In this document: positions 481 through 28,097 of the stretch, one piece after another
Numbering within the stretch: position 1 is the stretch's first letter
Layout: each line of letters starts with the position of its first letter
Source of the DNA: an uncultured Methylococcaceae bacterium
GTDB lineage: Bacteria; Pseudomonadota; Gammaproteobacteria; Methylococcales; Methylococcaceae
Direction of reading: 5' to 3'
NCBI GenBank assembly: GCA_903930145.1
Contig: CAIYXP010000191.1
Coordinates: forward strand, 1 to 64,000
Length of the DNA: 64,000 bases
The notes under the pieces: generated by a model
Seen by the model: only the letters and a program-made list of their open reading frames with translations
The model's database searches: none
What the model was told of the DNA's origin: nothing
Program-made: the position numbers and the translations under genes

Positions 481-806
481 AGCGGCGCGCCACACCCAGT
501 ATCAAAAGCATGGGTTACGAGCTTGCTCTGATTTTCGGATCTGCCAGCGATTTAAAGACCTCTTGACCCACCGTGGGGCGGAAGCCGTCCCTTATTTGGG
601 GCAGGACAGCGAAAAACCCCGCCATCCTTTACCTCCCGCTCAATAAACTATAACTCATTGAATAATGATATTCTCTTTACTTGCCTTATGAATATGCTAT
701 AAAATTCGTTTAAGTCTGGTTTTTGCTAGGCTGCTTCATTTTTCGACAAATCCCGAGTTGTTTGCAGATTTGGCAACTTCCCCAAAGGTTTCAGAAACAA
801 GCTAAA
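481..806. other. Intergenic region upstream of the EPS operon
   Basis: About 330 bp separate the terminator from the first EPS gene. Short open frames here have no recognisable product. The only structure I can support is a possible sigma-70 promoter near 676-703. Nothing else was recognised. Confidence 0.5.
676..703 (+). promoter_or_regulatory. Possible sigma-70 promoter for the EPS operon
   Basis: TTTACT (676-681), a 16-nt spacer and TATAAA (698-703) lie about 100 bp before the glycosylphosphotransferase start, in AT-rich DNA. The -35 match is only partial, so this is a prediction from spacing and sequence. Confidence 0.35.
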
Positions 807-2324
807 ATGGCATTGTCAGGCATGAAAAAAACGGTTAAAAACCGTGTGAATAGCGGCAAGACACACGAAAGCAAACCTTGGTCAGAGCCTAACCGCTCAT
901 TTTTCCTCCCGAATGCAAACCTGACCGAACATGGCGCGAGTACCCTCGACACGGGTAGCGTAGCCCTAATCAAATGGCTGATTTGCCCGATTGTCATCGT
1001 TGCCAGCCTGTTCGGGTGCGTCCTATATTATGACCAGAACTTCAAGGAAGATTTTTTATCTTTGGCGATCGTCAGTTTCCTGCTTGCCTCGCATATTTTT
1101 GACGAGGCCAATCTGTACCGGCAGCAAGAGAAATTCCCCTTATTCCAAGCCTTTTACGGAATATTATTGAAATGGGCGCTGCTGGTGGGGTGTTTGTGGG
1201 TATTGGGCGTTGTCACTGGCCAGACCGGTCAGTTCCCCCACAAGCCTTTACTGGCTTGGATTGCGATCACCCCATTGCCTTTACTGGTATTCAACCTGCT
1301 AGCGAGGCAGGTTTTGCGGAGCATGGTCTCCAAGGGTAAAAACCAGCGCACGGCGATCATCGTGGGCGCCAATCCGCTGGGATATGACCTTTTCGGCAAA
1401 ATTAATAATGATGCGTATTTGGGGATAAAAGTCCTAGGGTTTTTCGATGACCGGTCGCAGGTGCGCTTGCCCCTGGACATGCAGGAGTCGGTCATCGGGC
1501 CGATGGATGCTGTCACCCCTTATGTGTGGGAGCACAATGTCGACCTAGTCTACATCTCCCTGCCGATGCTGCCCCATCCGCGCGTGTTAAACCTTATGGA
1601 CGCCTTGCGCGATTCGACTGCCTCGGTATACTTTGTGCCGGACATGTTTATGTTCGACTTGATCAATGCCCGTTTCGACCATGTCAACGGCGTGCCCGTG
1701 GTGTCGATCCGCGACACGCCTTACTTTGGGGTGCGCGGTTTGATCAAACGTTTGAGCGACATTGTGATTGCCAGCGTTATCCTGACGCTGATTTCCCCAG
1801 TCATGCTGGTGATTGCAGCGGGCATCAAACTGACATCGCGTGGGCCCGTGCTGTTCAAGCAGAGGCGGTACGGCTTGGACGGGGAGGAGATCAGGGTGTA
1901 CAAATTCCGCTCGATGACTGTGGCCGAGGATGGCGACCAGGTTGTGCAGGCGAAAAAGAATGACCAGCGGGTCACCCCCTTCGGCAAATTCCTCAGGAGG
2001 ACTTCGCTCGATGAATTGCCCCAGTTCATCAACGTGCTGCAAGGGTGCATGAGCGTGGTCGGCCCAAGGCCACACGCGGTGGCGCATAACGAAATGTACC
2101 GCAAGGTGATTAAGGGTTACATGATCCGCCACAAGGTCAAGCCGGGGGTCACTGGCTGGGCGCAAGTGAACGGCCTGCGAGGGGAGACGGAGACACTCGA
2201 CAAAATGGCGGCGCGCGTCGAATATGACTTGGAATACATTCGGAACTGGTCGCTGATGCTAGATTTATGGATCATTTTGAAAACCGTCAGGGTTGTCTTC
2301 GTTAGCGACAAAAATGCATTTTGA
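807..2324 (+). CDS. Polyprenyl glycosylphosphotransferase (initiating EPS sugar transferase, WcaJ-like)
   Basis: Transfers the first sugar phosphate from a nucleotide sugar to undecaprenyl phosphate at the inner membrane, starting each EPS repeat unit. The 505 residues have the usual layout: about four N-terminal membrane helices, a central NAD-like nucleotide-binding fold (AIIVGANPLGYDL), one more hydrophobic segment (IVIASVILTLISPVMLVIAA) and the C-terminal bacterial sugar transferase domain with LFKQRRYGLDG, YKFRSM, DELPQ and VVGPRPH. The frame is open from a TTG at 723. ATG 807 is preferred because the extra 28 residues look non-coding; ATG 822 is also possible. It is the first gene of the EPS locus. 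The sugar is not predictable from sequence. Confidence 0.9.
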   Translation: MALSGMKKTVKNRVNSGKTHESKPWSEPNRSFFLPNANLTEHGASTLDTGSVALIKWLICPIVIVASLFGCVLYYDQNFKEDFLSLAIVSFLLASHIFDEANLYRQQEKFPLFQAFYGILLKWALLVGCLWVLGVVTGQTGQFPHKPLLAWIAITPLPLLVFNLLARQVLRSMVSKGKNQRTAIIVGANPLGYDLFGKINNDAYLGIKVLGFFDDRSQVRLPLDMQESVIGPMDAVTPYVWEHNVDLVYISLPMLPHPRVLNLMDALRDSTASVYFVPDMFMFDLINARFDHVNGVPVVSIRDTPYFGVRGLIKRLSDIVIASVILTLISPVMLVIAAGIKLTSRGPVLFKQRRYGLDGEEIRVYKFRSMTVAEDGDQVVQAKKNDQRVTPFGKFLRRTSLDELPQFINVLQGCMSVVGPRPHAVAHNEMYRKVIKGYMIRHKVKPGVTGWAQVNGLRGETETLDKMAARVEYDLEYIRNWSLMLDLWIILKTVRVVFVSDKNAF

Positions 2325-4304: not shown

Positions 4305-5738
4305 ATGAATTTTTCCCAAATCATTTTGATCCTGTTGGCGCGCAAGCGCGTTATCTTGATAACCTTATTTGTGACGGCAGCGACCGTTACCACAATTACC
4401 CTGCTGCTTCCGAAAACTTACATAGGGGAAACATCGCTCGTCGTTAATTTCAAAGGGGTGGACCCGATTACCGGGATGGTTCTGCCGGCGCAACTAATGC
4501 CCGGTTACATGGCCACGCAAGTGGATATCGCCACCAGCCACAATGTCGCATTGAGAGCGGTTGACCGGCTGAAACTTGACAAAGTACCGCAAGTCATCGA
4601 AAACTTTAATGAAAGCATGGATCGGGGGGACATCCGCGACTGGCTGGCGAATAGCCTAGTGAAAAATCTTGAAGTCAAGCCTTCACGGGAAAGCAGCGTG
4701 ATCACTTTTACCTATTCCGGCACGGATCCGCAATTTGTGGCGGAATTAGCCAATACGTTTGCCTGGGCCTACATCCAAGCCAACATAGAGTTGAACGTAG
4801 AACCCGCCCGACAGCAATCCGCTTGGTTCGACGAACAACTAAAGGACTTGCGCAATAAGGTGGAAGTGGCGCAGAAGCGCTTGTCTGACTATCAGCGGGA
4901 AACTGGTTTATTGCCAACATCGCGGATGGACGGGCGCCTGGATGTGGAAAACGCCCGTCTGGCCGAGCTATCCAGCCAACTTGTCGCCGCTCAGGCGCAA
5001 ACGTATGAGAGCATCACCCGGCAACGCCAGATTAGCGGGGCGCATGCCAAGGGCAAACTGGGCGAACTGCCTGACATCCTCAACAATGCCCTCATCCAAA
5101 ACATGAAAGCCGAACTGACTAGGGCCGAAAGCAAGCTGGCGGAAGCGTCCGAGCGTGTCTCCAAGAACCATCCACACTATATAAGCGCCCTAGCGGAAGT
5201 GCAAAGCTTAAAGCAAAAAATTGCCGCTGAAATCCAAACCGCGCGGGGTTCCATGGAAAATGCGGCAACCCAGGCGCAACAACGGGAAAACGAACTCAAA
5301 AAGGCGTTGGCCGAACAAAAGGCACGGGTCATGCAGTTGAAAGAGCAGCGCGACCGCAGCGACTTGCTCACCCAAGAGATGAACAGCGCCCAAGCCGCGC
5401 TAGACTCCACCACGCAACGGGCAAACCTAATCCGACTGGAAAGCCAGCGCAACCTGACCGACATTGCCGTGCTAAACCCGGCCGTAGCCCCCTCGAAACA
5501 TACCAAGCCCAATATACCCATGAACATAGCCATTTCCATTGTGCTGGGTACGATGCTGGGCTTTGGACTCGCGCTGATTTTGGAGCTTTTGGACAAGCGG
5601 GTGCGCTCCGTCGAGGATATCACCGAAAACTTAGGATTGCCTGTGCTGGTGGTCATTGCAGCTTCAGCAACTGCAAAATCACGCCGCCGGTTCTTCCGTA
5701 GAAAGGGGATGCCACTCATACAAAGGCAGGGCGCATGA
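4305..5738 (+). CDS. epsF: EpsF chain-length determinant protein (Wzz family)
   Basis: Inner-membrane polysaccharide co-polymerase that sets EPS chain length with the Wzy polymerase and the EpsG partner. The 477 residues have an N-terminal membrane helix (about 15-37), a long periplasmic coiled-coil region (about 160-390, rich in Ala, Glu and Gln), a Pro-rich PSKHTKPNIPMN segment and a second helix (about 405-428). There is no fused kinase domain; that role is in the next gene. Its stop overlaps the start of epsG by 4 nt (ATGA), implying translational coupling. Confidence 0.92.
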   Translation: MNFSQIILILLARKRVILITLFVTAATVTTITLLLPKTYIGETSLVVNFKGVDPITGMVLPAQLMPGYMATQVDIATSHNVALRAVDRLKLDKVPQVIENFNESMDRGDIRDWLANSLVKNLEVKPSRESSVITFTYSGTDPQFVAELANTFAWAYIQANIELNVEPARQQSAWFDEQLKDLRNKVEVAQKRLSDYQRETGLLPTSRMDGRLDVENARLAELSSQLVAAQAQTYESITRQRQISGAHAKGKLGELPDILNNALIQNMKAELTRAESKLAEASERVSKNHPHYISALAEVQSLKQKIAAEIQTARGSMENAATQAQQRENELKKALAEQKARVMQLKEQRDRSDLLTQEMNSAQAALDSTTQRANLIRLESQRNLTDIAVLNPAVAPSKHTKPNIPMNIAISIVLGTMLGFGLALILELLDKRVRSVEDITENLGLPVLVVIAASATAKSRRRFFRRKGMPLIQRQGA

Positions 5739-6580
5739 ACGAACCCAATTCGAACAAAAATATAGGCAGGTTACTGTTGGATGCCGGCAAGCTTAAACTG
5801 CCGGATATAGAGTTGATCGAATATTGCCAAAAAGAACAGGGGCTGCGCTTTGGGGAGGCGGCAGTCAAGCTTGGGCTGGTTGACGAAGCCGACATCCTGC
5901 AAATACTCGCGCAACAGTTCGACTATCCCTACCTGCAACCGGGCGAGGAAGGATTCAGCGAGGAACTGGTGGCCGCCTACCATCCATTTAGCAGCCAAGT
6001 CGAGGCATTCCGCAGTTTACGCAGTCAACTCACCCTACGCTGGTTCAACGAGGAACACAAGCAATTGGCGCTGGTGGGAGTGGGTTCCGGGGAAGATTGC
6101 AGCTTGTTGGCGGCAAACCTAGCCATCGTGTTTTCCCAACTGGGTCAGCGTACAGTGCTGGTAGATGCCAACTTGCGCAACAACCCGACCCAGCATCGAC
6201 TCTTTAATCTTCCACAGTCAGCCGGGTTGTCCGAGGTGTTGAATGGACGCATCGGCATAGAGGCAATCAGAAAAATTCCGGCGTTTGTTGACTTGTCCGT
6301 GCTAACGGCAGGCACCCTGCCACCCAACCCGCAAGAACTTTTAGGTCGGCCGGGGTTTCGGCTGCTGATGCGCGATTTGGCCAAAAACTACGATGCCACC
6401 CTTTTGGTTACGCCAAATGGATTGCTCTATGCCGACACGCAAAATATCGTCGCAGAAACCGGCGCGGCCTTGTTGGTCGTACACAGAAACCATACCCGCA
6501 TAAAAGATGCGCGTGCGGTGCAAGCCCAAATCCTGAATGCAAAGGCACAAATCTTGGGGGTTGTCATCAATGAGTTTTGA
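5735..6580 (+). CDS. epsG: EpsG chain-length determinant partner (BY-kinase-like, degenerate P-loop)
   Basis: Cytoplasmic ATPase-like partner of EpsF. Residues 1-75 resemble the MshEN/type II secretion E N-terminal domain (IGRLLLDAGKL, FGEAAVKLGLVDEADILQIL). Residues 85-281 are a MinD/ParA-like BY-kinase fold with VLVDANLRNNPTQHRLF as the Walker A' region. The Walker A position reads GVGSGEDCSLLAANLA, without the usual GK[ST] lysine, and there is no Tyr-rich C-terminal tail, so kinase activity is doubtful. EpsG members I know of also deviate here. The stop overlaps a small ORF at 6570, and the exosortase follows. Confidence 0.88.
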   Translation: MNEPNSNKNIGRLLLDAGKLKLPDIELIEYCQKEQGLRFGEAAVKLGLVDEADILQILAQQFDYPYLQPGEEGFSEELVAAYHPFSSQVEAFRSLRSQLTLRWFNEEHKQLALVGVGSGEDCSLLAANLAIVFSQLGQRTVLVDANLRNNPTQHRLFNLPQSAGLSEVLNGRIGIEAIRKIPAFVDLSVLTAGTLPPNPQELLGRPGFRLLMRDLAKNYDATLLVTPNGLLYADTQNIVAETGAALLVVHRNHTRIKDARAVQAQILNAKAQILGVVINEF

Positions 6581-20821: not shown

Positions 20822-22288
20822 TCACGGTTGTTGCTGTGTAGGTAGGTACTGGATTGGCATTGCAGTAGTTGGGTAGGCTCCGATATTCAGTGTTCTTCCT
20901 TGGTTGGTGATAATCCTGTATTGGCTAATGACGCTGGAAATCGGGGAGCCTTTGCCCACTACCGGGGAAGTGGCTCCGATGGCGAAATATCGCTTTGTCA
21001 ATTTCCCCGGCCTTACTTTGCCTGAAAGCACCAGCCCAGGATTTCCGATGATGTCACCATTGCCTGACGCATTGGCGGGTGGGGGGTGCGACCACAGGTT
21101 ATTGGACATATCCAATCCGTCACGACTCGGGATATTGGCAAGGCTAAAGTCTTCTTTGCTTGTAAAGAAGATATTATTTTTAATGACGGATTCTTGGTTT
21201 TTACCACCAGTTCGGATCATGCCATCAATGACAGTGTTATTTGCAATCAGTGTATTGAACAAGCCGCCGTCGGTGGGTATTGACCACGAAAATGCGTTTA
21301 TATCCCCGTTCAATATCATGTTGTTGACAACCATGTTATTAGCAGAACGAGGTTTGTCAGACCGTTCGTCCGCCAACGTTAGATTTATCGTGAAACGACC
21401 AGGAGTACGCGCACCAATATCGATGATAATGTTATCCGGCGTATTATAAATCAAATTATTTTTTAGGATGACATTCCTTGCATCGGAAATATAAACGTTT
21501 AGCGCCCAATTATTATAGACGGTGTTGTCTTCCATGATAGTGCCATCAGCCTCATAGGTTGATAGCCCCTCGCCCCAGTTTTCCGTCACCGTATTCCCGC
21601 GCAAAATAGCATGTTTGGTAATGCCTCCCGCCTTATTGCGCGCGGCACTGAGACCGGATGCCCATTTATTCGTTCCACCATTGCCAATTAGATAGTTGTA
21701 ATGGTTCATGCACGACCAAGACACCTTGCTATTTTCAACAATGCTATAATCCCCCCTTGCCAATATTCCATTCTGCAACATATGATGCGCATTCACATTG
21801 CTAACGGTATTGTGGCTACCGTTCACGTGAACGCCAACGCCGCCATTGCGTAATTCAAATCCTGATAGCTTAATATATTCCCCATCTAGATAAAAAAATG
21901 CTTGCCACGTTTTTATATTAATTGAAGAACCATCTAATATGGGAATTTCATTGGGATATGCTAATATTTTAACTGGGTTTTTTTCGATACCTATGTTATT
22001 TAATACGATCCCGCTCTGATTATATATTCCACCCCGTACATATAAGGTATCACAGGGAGACAATATTTTAGCTGATTTATGTATTGAAAGCCAAGGGCTG
22101 TCGATAGTTCCTAGATTTCTGTCGTTACCTGAAGACGAGACATAGTAAGTATTGCAATTAGCTTTTGCTTCAATTGGATTTCCAATAATTAATACAATAC
22201 CAAAAACGACTGATGCCAGAACCATAAAACAATATCTATTGTGATGTTTCACGGTATTTTGGTATTTTACCAGGCTATCTTGAATCAT
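20822..22288 (-). CDS. Secreted right-handed parallel beta-helix protein, paralogue 1
   Basis: A 488-aa exported protein: signal peptide (FMVLASVVFGIVLIIGNPIEAKA), then NCNTYYVSSSGNDRNLGTID and repeated beta-helix coils (NHYNYLIGNGGTNKW, EGLSTYEADGTIMEDNTVY, LKNNLIYNTPDNIIID) of the pectate-lyase/DUF1565 type. Family knowledge: such folds are found in polysaccharide lyases, epimerases and surface adhesins. In this locus it could trim or bind the EPS. It is paralogous to 22673-24127 in sequence and length. A perfect 9-bp inverted repeat sits just upstream of its ribosome-binding region. I see no certain catalytic residues. Confidence 0.82.
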   Translation of the reverse strand: MIQDSLVKYQNTVKHHNRYCFMVLASVVFGIVLIIGNPIEAKANCNTYYVSSSGNDRNLGTIDSPWLSIHKSAKILSPCDTLYVRGGIYNQSGIVLNNIGIEKNPVKILAYPNEIPILDGSSINIKTWQAFFYLDGEYIKLSGFELRNGGVGVHVNGSHNTVSNVNAHHMLQNGILARGDYSIVENSKVSWSCMNHYNYLIGNGGTNKWASGLSAARNKAGGITKHAILRGNTVTENWGEGLSTYEADGTIMEDNTVYNNWALNVYISDARNVILKNNLIYNTPDNIIIDIGARTPGRFTINLTLADERSDKPRSANNMVVNNMILNGDINAFSWSIPTDGGLFNTLIANNTVIDGMIRTGGKNQESVIKNNIFFTSKEDFSLANIPSRDGLDMSNNLWSHPPPANASGNGDIIGNPGLVLSGKVRPGKLTKRYFAIGATSPVVGKGSPISSVISQYRIITNQGRTLNIGAYPTTAMPIQYLPTQQQP

Positions 22289-22672: not shown

Positions 22673-24127
22673 TTACTGTGCCGCGAGATATTGGATTGGG
22701 GGATTGGATAGGTATGCCCCAATATTCGGCTTTAGGCTGCTGGTTACTAAATAGTAATCAGTGGTATCTTGAATCGCTATGCCGTTCCCTACGACTGGCG
22801 AAGCCGATGTGATTGAGAAATAGGCTTTTGTGAGCTGTCCAGGACCCGTATTGCCGGTCATCGCAAGGTTGGGGGTTCCAATAATATCGCCTTTTCCAGT
22901 AACTGACAGCGGGGGTTGTTTGGACCATAGGTTATTGGAGAAACTTATTCCCGGATACGTCGCTGATGCATTGTTCACAGAGCCACCGTCATTCCGATAA
23001 AAAATATTGTTATAAACCATGTTGCCTATGTGATCTGTTGTTGTTGCGGGAGTGGCAAAAGCACCGTTGACGAGCGTATTGTTTGCGATCAAATCGCCAA
23101 CCAGCCCGGACCCCGGCACGAGCGTCCAGCAGAATGCGCAAATGTGCCCGTTCAAGAACATGTTGTTAATCACAACATTGTTGGCGGAGCGGGGTTTGGT
23201 CGCCTTTTCATCCGCAAGTGTCAATACGGCTGACTTTGTTCCAACTGCATTATTCGGTGTGTTATACACCAAGTTATTCCTAAAGATAACGTTTGTTGAA
23301 TCGGAAATATAAGTGTTTGTCGCCCAGTTGTCATAAACTACATTATTCTCTATGAGCGTACCGTCTGCCTCATAGGTTGACAGACCTTCCCCGTATACGG
23401 AATGGACGGTATTTCCCCGCACTATGGTTCGTGTCGCCACGCCATCACTTGCAGGTGCTGAACCGGCACCTGTTATAGTGATGCCAACACCCCATCCACC
23501 CTTCGCTATTCTGTAGGGTGAAGCAGGGTCAGCGTTACACAGGCTGGTGAATGAAACGGTATTGTTCTCGACAAGCCCGTAATCTCCTCTAAAAAATATT
23601 CCAGTACCATTAGTATGATGGATATTCATATTTTTAATAATGCCATAAGCACCCCAAAAATCAACACCCGCTGAGGTTGCACTATTTCTTAACTCAAACC
23701 CTGACAGGGTGACGTATTTTCCCGCAATGATAAAAAACGGCTTGTTCAGCGGATTTTCTACGTTTGCCCCATCCACTACAGGAGACTCACCTGGATAGGC
23801 CAATATCTGGATTGGTTGGGTTGCCGTTCCACTGGTGCCAACCCATATATTATATTCTCCATAGACCCCGTTACGAACAAAGAGCGTATCGCAAGCTTTG
23901 AGTCTCGCTGCACCTGTAGCGATGGTGCGCCAAGGCGCATCGATAGTACCCAGAGCGCTGTTATTACCCGAAGTCGAGACATAATATGTGTTGCAAGCTG
24001 CATTCGCCATCAATGGCATCGCAGCAAACGAGGAAATGCCAAGAAAAATCGCTGCCGGTATCAAATAATGACGGTTATTGCGTCTTTGCGCAGAAAATTG
24101 GACTGATTTTGAATTATTGTTAAACAT
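22673..24127 (-). CDS. Secreted right-handed parallel beta-helix protein, paralogue 2
   Basis: A 484-aa exported protein with signal peptide (HYLIPAAIFLGISSFAAMPLMANA) and mature start ACNTYYVSTSGNNSALGTID, followed by beta-helix coils (VEIN-like ladders such as NIHHTNGTGIFFRGDYGLVE and GEGLSTYEADGTLIENNVVY). It shares these landmarks with 20822-22288, so the two arose by duplication, but they have diverged clearly in the middle. Secreted polysaccharide lyase or surface matrix protein are both possible. A GTG at 24139 also starts the frame; ATG 24127 is preferred, with GGGTGGGT upstream. Confidence 0.82.
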   Translation of the reverse strand: MFNNNSKSVQFSAQRRNNRHYLIPAAIFLGISSFAAMPLMANAACNTYYVSTSGNNSALGTIDAPWRTIATGAARLKACDTLFVRNGVYGEYNIWVGTSGTATQPIQILAYPGESPVVDGANVENPLNKPFFIIAGKYVTLSGFELRNSATSAGVDFWGAYGIIKNMNIHHTNGTGIFFRGDYGLVENNTVSFTSLCNADPASPYRIAKGGWGVGITITGAGSAPASDGVATRTIVRGNTVHSVYGEGLSTYEADGTLIENNVVYDNWATNTYISDSTNVIFRNNLVYNTPNNAVGTKSAVLTLADEKATKPRSANNVVINNMFLNGHICAFCWTLVPGSGLVGDLIANNTLVNGAFATPATTTDHIGNMVYNNIFYRNDGGSVNNASATYPGISFSNNLWSKQPPLSVTGKGDIIGTPNLAMTGNTGPGQLTKAYFSITSASPVVGNGIAIQDTTDYYLVTSSLKPNIGAYLSNPPIQYLAAQ

Positions 24128-24684
24128 TTGGCTACCCACCCTGACTTTTCGTCAAAAATAATACTAAATAGTTGGAGTTTGTCGGTTATAATCCATTCAT
24201 TAATGCTATGTGAGCCTATCAACAAACCGTTTGGACTTGTCAAATACGAAAGCGAAAGACATGCCAACTTTTTATCAAACAATGACGAACTACAGGTTTT
24301 CTCGGTGGCCTCGTTTCAAAGTGCGTACCGTTACGAACCACATACCCAAGAGCCTGGCCGTAACCATCAATATCATATATATATCATACACATATCAAAT
24401 AAATATGACTGCTCGCCAAGAACCATTTCGACCGCTTCGCCTTCAAGCAGGGCAATTCAAAATGCTAGGCTGCCAACCCATGATCAGTGAGGTGTTCTCT
24501 CAATCCGCGCAAGCAATACTCCCATTTTCCGTGAACAGTCGATTTCAGATCAAACGAGCGACAATATGGTTATCATATAAATCATTAGCATAGAAACTAC
24601 CCGTATAGTTTTGTAAAACAATCGTTGCTTCCCCCCGACATTTATCCTACTTGCCTAACAGCTAGGCCACAGTGACCAGCCCCT
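24128..24684. other. AT-rich intergenic region upstream of the beta-helix genes
   Basis: About 550 bp of AT-rich DNA including runs of TA dinucleotides near 24376-24412. Short open frames are present on the plus strand, but none has a ribosome-binding site or recognisable product. It presumably contains the promoter of the minus-strand beta-helix gene. Nothing more specific was seen. Confidence 0.4.
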
Positions 24685-26824: not shown

Positions 26825-27652
26825 CTAGATATTTTGGTTTCCTGAATACGCAACTCTGGCATTCGCGTCAACCAGCCACGTGCGGCCTCCTTCGATTTCC
26901 ATATTATACATGCCTTCGGGGGTTATCACTTGGCCGTGATTGCCTTGGCCGCCCATGGTGATGATGACCCGGTAAGCTCGGCCCGCCGTTTCCAAATAAC
27001 CTACCCATGTCACGTCGCCGTTGGGATGGCGGAACGCCTTGTCATGCACGACTGCAAACTGTCCGCAGGGTAGCGTCAGGTTGACCTTCTCGCCCACTTG
27101 CATTTCTTTCATCCGTTCCGTCGGGAACGACACCGGGCTTACCGCGCCGGGGTTCAGACCTTGATATTTCTGCGGCAATGCAAAGGCGGCCGTGTCATAA
27201 ACCATCAGGTCGTCGCTGGCACTGGCAGGGGTGTTGGCGGCAGCGGCATTGGCGGCAACCAACCCCTCGGCGTATTGGTTGCGACCGTAAACGGACAATT
27301 GTTGCGGCTGGCCATTCTTGCCCCAAACGGCGCTGTAATTGTAGCCTTCCAGCAATTGACCCAGTGCGGCTTGCCACGTGTCACTATGGACGGAACGTGA
27401 AATCAGGTCGGCTGAGAGGTGTTGCGGCATTTTGACTTCGGCACCGCTACGGGCTTTGATTTCCCGCATCACTTCGCACAGGGTCTTGTTCTTGATGTCC
27501 ATCGAAATGGCGCCATTCCCATTGGCTGGCTTTTGCGCTTGGCCATTGTCGGCAAAGGCGAAGCTCGGAGCCAACATCAAGGCTGCGGTCAGTACGACGG
27601 AGGACAAACGAAGCCCGAACGACTGCGAATTGCGGGAAAATAAATTGTTCAC
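26825..27652 (-). CDS. Secreted STN-domain protein under riboswitch control
   Basis: A 275-aa exported protein. After a signal peptide (VVLTAALMLAPSFAFA) comes a secretin/TonB short N-terminal-like domain (ISMDIKNKTLCEVMREIKAR, WQAALGQLLEGYNYSAVW), a linker, and a C-terminal domain (GEKVNLTLPCGQFAVVHDKA, NGDVTWVGYLETAGRAYRVI) resembling the pro-region of secreted metallopeptidases linked to exosortase loci; no peptidase domain follows. The start is GTG 27652: AAGAGGT lies 5 nt upstream, while the longer frame from 27697 would run through the regulatory hairpin. A c-di-GMP-I riboswitch lies 70 nt upstream, so c-di-GMP should control its expression. A role in biofilm matrix assembly or surface sensing is inferred. 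Confidence 0.75.
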   Translation of the reverse strand: MNNLFSRNSQSFGLRLSSVVLTAALMLAPSFAFADNGQAQKPANGNGAISMDIKNKTLCEVMREIKARSGAEVKMPQHLSADLISRSVHSDTWQAALGQLLEGYNYSAVWGKNGQPQQLSVYGRNQYAEGLVAANAAAANTPASASDDLMVYDTAAFALPQKYQGLNPGAVSPVSFPTERMKEMQVGEKVNLTLPCGQFAVVHDKAFRHPNGDVTWVGYLETAGRAYRVIITMGGQGNHGQVITPEGMYNMEIEGGRTWLVDANARVAYSGNQNI

Positions 27653-27690
27653 GATACACCTCTTAAATTCATCGAAACGAATCAAGAGGT
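27653..27690 (-). promoter_or_regulatory. Ribosome-binding-site sequestering hairpin
   Basis: On the minus strand ACCTCTT (27690-27684) is complementary to the ribosome-binding site AAGAGGT (27664-27658) in front of GTG 27652; ATTC/GAAT pairs extend the stem. It follows the c-di-GMP aptamer directly, the usual layout of an expression platform acting on translation initiation. Confidence 0.7.
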
Positions 27691-27720
27691 CTAACAAGGA
27701 GGGGTAGTACGACTATGTAT

Positions 27721-27810
27721 GCTGCCCGGCAACCCATCTACCATATCCGGTCACCCCGGACTTAGGCTGTGGCTTTGCGTCCCATTCTTTCGAATGGTTT
27801 GCCCTTATCA
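27721..27810 (-). ncRNA. Cyclic di-GMP-I riboswitch (GEMM-I aptamer)
   Basis: The minus strand shows the full GEMM-I consensus in order: GGGCAAACC, the P1b stem ATTC-GAAA-GAAT with its GAAA tetraloop, GGGACGCAAAGCCACAG, the tetraloop-receptor side CCTAAG, a GTCCGG-GTGA-CCGGAT hairpin with a GTGA loop, then ATGGTAGATGGGTTGCCG closing with the 5' GGC. Such RNAs bind c-di-GMP with high affinity. It is in the leader of the secreted STN protein (26825-27652), followed by a hairpin that can hide its ribosome-binding site. Direction (on or off) cannot be read with certainty. Confidence 0.93.
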
Positions 27811-28097
27811 GACCCATCAAATTTCTAGACCTTGTAGCGGCCAACTGTCTGCAGGAAACCGCTACGCTTTTCTATACAGCAATTGTCAGGCCAGCTATTA
27901 AAAGATTGCCCGTCGCCTCCGGCATGTCCGATTACCAACATAGGCAGCTTGCATTGGCTCGATTATTGTTATTTTCATCATTAAATCATTGTATTACGAT
28001 TATCAATCCGAACATGGGTTAAAATAAGGCAATCGCCAAAGCGGCTTGCGCCAAGAGGATGGACATGCCATCGCAATCCGCTCGCTATGATTTCAAC

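Follow-up and report, generated by a model that had tools for sequence, protein, structure and literature searches.

We describe a c-di-GMP-I (GEMM-I) riboswitch in an uncultured Methylococcaceae bacterium that precedes a conserved gene for a solo metzincin prodomain, that is, a homologue of the N-terminal half of secreted metalloprotease zymogens that carries no protease domain. Our best explanation, to which we give a probability of about 50%, is that this switch acts on translation, that ligand binding turns it OFF, and that the exported product would act in trans on a metzincin. The window, meaning the whole 64-kb stretch of DNA that was analysed, contains the following features, listed in the direction of transcription:

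27802..27815, minus strand: aptamer 5' strand GGGUCUGAUAAGGG, the 5' side of an anti-aptamer helix, with 14 bp possible with 27700-27687
27725..27813, minus strand: c-di-GMP-I (GEMM-I) riboswitch aptamer, full length (RF01051, 76.5 bits, E 2.9e-13)
27687..27700, minus strand: 3' side of the anti-aptamer helix, UCCUUGUUAGACCU, ending in the four bases ACCU, which double as the base of the sequestering hairpin
27682..27690, minus strand: 5' arm of the hairpin, ACCUCUUGA, conserved in all five orthologous leaders with 9/9 pairs kept
27658..27666, minus strand: 3' arm of the hairpin, including the Shine-Dalgarno sequence AAGAGGU (27664-27658), six bases before the GTG at 27652
26825..27652, minus strand: target gene with a GTG start, encoding 275 aa: signal peptide, N0/STN-like and metzincin-prodomain-like domains, no protease domain
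27275..27508, minus strand: secretin-N0/STN-like N-terminal domain, residues ~49-126 (STN 17.9 bits; fold Z 6-8)
26828..27217, minus strand: metzincin-prodomain/CpaB-like C-terminal domain, residues ~146-275 (CpaB fold match)

The aptamer and its expression platform

The riboswitch itself belongs to an ordinary, well-known class. An earlier note, made from the sequence, had recognised a complete GEMM-I aptamer on the minus strand and proposed a covariance-model search as a check; cmscan of the whole window confirms it with a significant, full-length match to RF01051 at 27813-27725(-) (76.5 bits, E 2.9e-13, model positions 1-87; gathering cut-off 35 bits), which is also the sole Rfam match at gathering threshold within these 64 kb. 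The interval given in that note, 27653-27810, covers all of the aptamer but three bases at its 5' end. In the RF01051 alignment, model position 11, which corresponds to the ligand-contacting G, is occupied by G, and this column is G in all five leaders; the leader of genome G027 differs one base further in. We take this position to be the contact to the ligand's first guanine; in cGAMP-type variants the position is presumably A. Some GEMM-I variants do sense 3',3'-cGAMP, but if this rule holds then the G found here and in all five leaders makes 3',3'-cGAMP a highly improbable ligand in place of c-di-GMP. The arrangement as a whole recalls Vc2, the translational c-di-GMP-I switch of V. cholerae, in its full-length aptamer, the exported-protein gene downstream and the hairpin on the ribosome-binding site. 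It departs from Vc2 in having an expression platform built on 14 bp formed with the aptamer 5' strand, and in regulating a gene for a homologue of metzincin prodomains.

The hairpin had also been seen previously, as a pairing of ACCTCTT (27690-27684) with AAGAGGT (27664-27658) over the ribosome-binding site of the gene starting with GTG at 27652, and all of these positions proved exact on the minus strand. This pairing is conserved in the orthologous leaders; across four distinct leaders all nine of its pairs are retained, the changes being one double change from G-U to U-A and one from A-U to G-U, and pairing falls to 28-72% when the partner is slid along. Judged by shuffling one sequence, the 9-bp arm is unremarkable for a leader this short (P 0.03-0.11), and the covariation is suggestive but statistically not strong with four sequences, since 80 of 500 shuffles reach the same level. 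The minus strand has no terminator-like site in the stretch from aptamer to gene; for this reason a transcription-termination mechanism was rejected and a translational one is favoured.

The earlier idea that this hairpin is the switch stands only in part, for the hairpin is conserved but cannot switch alone, and a 14-bp pairing with the aptamer had been missed. That pairing, 27815-27802 with 27700-27687, is the longest complementarity in the leader, exceeding the hairpin, and measures 14, 14, 14, 13 and 10 bp over the five leaders, the shortest being that of G027. With the platform shuffled, the test of the 5' strand yields P 0.001 for G000 and 0.0015-0.02 for the orthologues; when any aptamer segment is allowed to pair, P is 0.04-0.35, and support for the helix therefore comes from its conservation as much as from its length. 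Its pairs are retained in 94.6% of cells across four distinct leaders with no double changes, and the segment CCTTGTTAGACC is conserved in the leaders along with the aptamer, the hairpin and the Shine-Dalgarno sequence. The lack of compensatory changes and the reduction to 10 bp in G027 nevertheless count against our best explanation.

The 14-bp helix would consume the ligand-contacting G and has ACCU in common with the base of the hairpin, and this overlap with the hairpin arm couples the state of the aptamer to the hairpin. We propose that, without c-di-GMP, the aptamer 5' strand would pair with 27700-27687, leaving the ligand-binding site unfolded and occupying the basal ACCU of the hairpin; the Shine-Dalgarno sequence would then be open more often. 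On binding c-di-GMP the aptamer would fold, ACCUCUU would be freed to clamp AAGAGGU completely, and translation would drop. When the aptamer was held folded in ViennaRNA calculations, the probability of an open GAGG went down 87x, 100x, 4.5x and 12x in the four distinct leaders. These calculations have the hairpin almost closed with or without ligand (probability open 5e-5 to 0.02 without it), and the dynamic range is consequently uncertain. From the folding we infer that the ribosome-binding site closes once the ligand is bound, a sign that we hold at roughly two chances in three given the strength of the hairpin in both states and the crude energetics of the bound-aptamer loop.

The same riboswitch and protein might instead respond to c-di-GMP as an ON signal, if the bound aptamer retained a shorter outer helix (GGGUCUGAU with GUUAGACCU) that takes up ACCU and exposes the ribosome-binding site. 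This outer pairing is conserved and independent of the ligand-contacting bases; class I c-di-GMP switches of both polarities exist, in V. cholerae and B. thuringiensis (PMC6366702), and an ON response would suit the biofilm-linked expression of BamI (PMC4334185), an inhibitor discussed below. However, the aptamer-forced ensemble permitted the outer pairing, yet exposure of the ribosome-binding site fell in all four leaders, and we regard an ON switch as unlikely.

The gene downstream and its homologues

The protein downstream has a signal peptide by eye at residues 1-34 and export is predicted, in agreement with its previous description as secreted. Profile matches to the rest of the chain all lie below threshold: Pfam STN (PF07660) scores 17.9 bits (E 0.0027; gathering score 28.4), the CpaB model NF033512 14.5 bits (E 0.025; curated cut-off 90) and the BamI model NF052435 12.7 bits (E 0.084; curated cut-off 180). 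An hmmsearch with a 29-member profile gave no solved relatives by sequence (top 3qvq, E 1.1), so that these emerge only via fold comparison. The AlphaFold2 model is of moderate confidence (pLDDT 78, pTM 0.63) and splits into two domains. The first is similar in fold (Z 6-8) to secretin N0 and to the signalling domains of FecA and PupR, while the C-terminal domain matches the CpaB chains of 6o38 (Foldseek E 1.3e-4 to 5.6e-4), with 6o38_H as the best solved match (Z 13.1 over 113 residues), followed by the ADAM17 prodomain (Z 7.7) and profragilysin (Z ~6). The original guess of an STN domain plus a peptidase pro-region is thus upheld at the level of the fold, with sequence scores that are sub-threshold. 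As modelled, the protein combines an N0-like domain with a metzincin prodomain that stands alone, the match being one of shape and not of function.

Its identity is accounted for by its homologues, which across the family are mostly 513-703 aa long and consist of the same N-terminal half followed by HExxHxxGxxH; both homologues that were scanned (n=2) contain the Pfam domain Reprolysin_4. The closest zymogens share 33-46% identity with the window protein in alignments of 200-290 residues (E as low as 1e-61), and identity to the non-solo homologues of the family is 24-41%. The HExxHxxGxxH catalytic domain is absent from the window protein and present in a zymogen paralogue encoded elsewhere in the same genome (contig C326). 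In a model of this paralogue the catalytic domain best matches CpaA (Z 23.2), and ~270-320 residues, spanning prodomain and catalytic domain, match the zymogens of fragilysin and ADAM17. The window gene is conserved and stands alone as a homologue of the N0/STN and prodomain half of secreted M12B-type metzincin zymogens; metzincin zymogens such as profragilysin, ADAM17 and the Methylococcales N0-prodomain-reprolysin proteins have their N-terminal architecture in common with its family homologues, but the window gene lacks their catalytic domain.

Of the seven genomes available for the genus, five carry an orthologue (G000, G027, G028, G029 and G030), all from uncultured Methylococcaceae of the Ca. 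Methylumidiphilus genus; among named relatives, uncultured Methylococcaceae MAGs and Ca. Methylumidiphilus come closest. In all five the aptamer occupies the equivalent position upstream of the solo gene and is found together with the hairpin, and each genome also encodes a zymogen. The riboswitch-linked solo proteins group together in a single clade (100/99), to which the zymogens encoded by these five genomes do not belong. No riboswitch was found upstream of the genus's own zymogens, nor upstream of solo genes in other genera. Comparison of the window gene with its orthologues gives dN/dS of 0.13-0.30 (0.52 for one other pair), values that place the riboswitch-linked solo genes under purifying selection, as judged from the sequences.

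Two details of these proteins may be recorded. The G027 orthologue (L010:1498-2163) has lost ~50 residues in frame while its riboswitch is intact, through either decay or an assembly error. Two cysteines, Cys59 (codon 27478-27476, minus strand) and Cys196 (27067-27065, minus strand), are present in the riboswitch-linked solo proteins and not in the zymogens at these positions; Cys196 sits within an LPCGQ turn that is deleted in G027, and the pair could possibly form a disulfide or serve as zinc ligands. Together with Cys196, a conserved H203-D204 is a candidate for the site of inhibitory contact.

Genomic setting and a possible role of the solo protein

The gene had been placed in an EPS/exosortase locus, and the window bears this out with WcaJ, EpsD, EpsE, EpsF, EpsG, exosortase B, glycosyltransferases, wecB and a mannose-1-phosphate guanylyltransferase. 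By eye, against the annotated window genes, solo genes elsewhere in the genus adjoin wecB (L007, L010) or phosphoheptose-isomerase-like and glycosyltransferase genes (L008). Distant, aptamer-free solo homologues in another family of Methylococcales (L106 and L109, family f8) adjoin exosortase-like and glycosyltransferase genes, also by eye, and the link between solo genes and EPS loci is therefore recurrent. Within the same locus, the EpsG tyrosine kinase (5735-6577, plus strand) has an N-terminal stretch like the MshE-type c-di-GMP-binding motif (NF053729, E 3.2e-6, 26.8 bits; cut-off 38), which from its sequence is a possible second c-di-GMP input to the EPS locus. Near the riboswitch gene, 20822-22288 and 22673-24139 on the minus strand encode paralogous exported right-handed beta-helix proteins with weak similarity to the PelN pectate lyase.

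Beside the window solo gene there is no protease gene, the neighbours being wecB and a GHMP kinase, and no protease remnant was found downstream of the riboswitch-linked solo genes. Among the distant solo loci only L105 has an adjacent protease, in overlapping frames that look like a frame-shifted zymogen. The solo protein could be the relic of a zymogen without its catalytic domain, or a domain reused in the EPS locus for a purpose unrelated to proteases, as the missing metzincin neighbour, the in-frame deletion in one orthologue and the position of L106 and L109 beside exosortase and glycosyltransferase genes might indicate. The dN/dS of 0.13-0.30, the monophyly of the solo clade, the conserved riboswitch and the clean downstream flank argue against this reading, which we consider rather improbable.

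Known systems suggest how a solo prodomain could work. In Acinetobacter, the C-terminal tail of CpaB blocks the active site of CpaA (PMC7542363). CpaB resembles the window protein in being a stand-alone exported protein with a matching C-terminal fold (Z 13.1), and the window protein's zymogen paralogue in turn has a CpaA-like catalytic domain. The window protein differs in its extra N0/STN-like domain and in a signal peptide where CpaB has a membrane anchor; cpaB adjoins its protease gene, which the window gene does not, and the sequence similarity is insignificant. In P. aeruginosa, the biofilm-associated metzincin inhibitor BamI binds Mep72 and relieves its toxicity, and bamI is cotranscribed with mep72 in a report that does not mention c-di-GMP (PMC4334185). 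Here the likeness lies in a weak similarity of the C-terminal region (best family member E 0.0012) and in regulation linked to biofilm, while the window protein falls far under the NCBIfam equivalog cut-off and bamI, again, adjoins its protease gene.

By analogy with CpaB/CpaA and BamI/Mep72, the window protein would be expected to act in trans on a metzincin, restraining or chaperoning it. We envisage that it reaches the periplasm, where its CpaB/prodomain-like half would bind a metzincin, most likely the protease of the C326 zymogen or another secreted metzincin, as an inhibitor or as an export chaperone. A count of the genome's metzincins by one Pfam family gives as candidate partners C326, C461, which by eye carries a pro-region of its own, and, at C96, a protein resembling serralysins. 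Against this, the matches to CpaB and BamI by sequence are insignificant (E 0.02-0.08), no protease adjoins the solo gene, the G027 copy has suffered its in-frame loss and the AlphaFold confidence is moderate.

A rival reading would make the protein a CpaB-like periplasmic chaperone or foldase that promotes its metzincin and does not restrain it, with the N0-like domain touching the type II secretion machinery. Its top fold match is indeed a T2SS chaperone required for the stability and secretion of CpaA, and its N-terminal domain resembles the N0 domains of secretins; but CpaB is membrane-anchored and encoded beside its protease, neither of which appears true of the window protein, and the genus zymogen already has its own prodomain, so that we think a promoting role somewhat unlikely.

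c-di-GMP and extracellular proteolysis in the family

The window genome (6.0 Mb, 542 contigs) has three more c-di-GMP-I aptamers, followed by genes for a GH16 protein, a protein with BNR/sortilin repeats and an exported protein that Pfam does not match. In one genus of the family, strong c-di-GMP-I aptamers precede the genes of secreted metzincin zymogens of the reprolysin type (L037 in G006, L038 in G005 and L035 in G008, this last a looser assignment because the listed frame starts 442 bases past the aptamer), and others lie upstream of subtilases in further genera (L039, L045 and L054). The linkage of c-di-GMP-I switches to proteolysis thus recurs across this methanotroph family. In a further genome, G025, divergent pairs of c-di-GMP-I aptamers lie ~400 bases apart (C376:177-268(-) with 676-765(+), and C314:1325-1414(-) with 1775-1866(+)), at least one of which precedes a LamG/Fn3-like exported protein.

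A precedent exists in Clostridioides difficile, where the secreted zinc metalloprotease ZmpI/PPEP-1 is controlled by a class I c-di-GMP riboswitch (PMC6366702), an OFF switch. There, however, the protease itself is regulated, and by transcription termination, whereas here a protease-free prodomain protein would be regulated, probably at translation. In the open-access literature we found no earlier description of a solo metzincin prodomain that lies in an EPS/exosortase locus under the control of a riboswitch, and nothing on c-di-GMP riboswitches in Methylomonas.

We tentatively suggest, as a possibility on the doubtful side, that the riboswitch doses a trans-acting metzincin prodomain and that the c-di-GMP-I switches of the family make up an extracellular-proteolysis regulon of metzincins, subtilases and an inhibitor. 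If so, the second messenger would act not through the protease but through its inhibitory half, released or withheld, and this would be a second case, beside ZmpI/PPEP-1 and by a different mechanism, of a riboswitch governing the pathway of a secreted metalloprotease. As a switch, the 5'-strand anti-aptamer design is compact, and few mutations would suffice to test it; our reading also offers a testable function for the exported N0/STN-plus-prodomain proteins that recur in Methylococcales EPS/exosortase loci. It would tie c-di-GMP directly to regulated extracellular proteolysis in environmentally important methanotrophs, and suggests that the cells tune this proteolysis when they change lifestyle.
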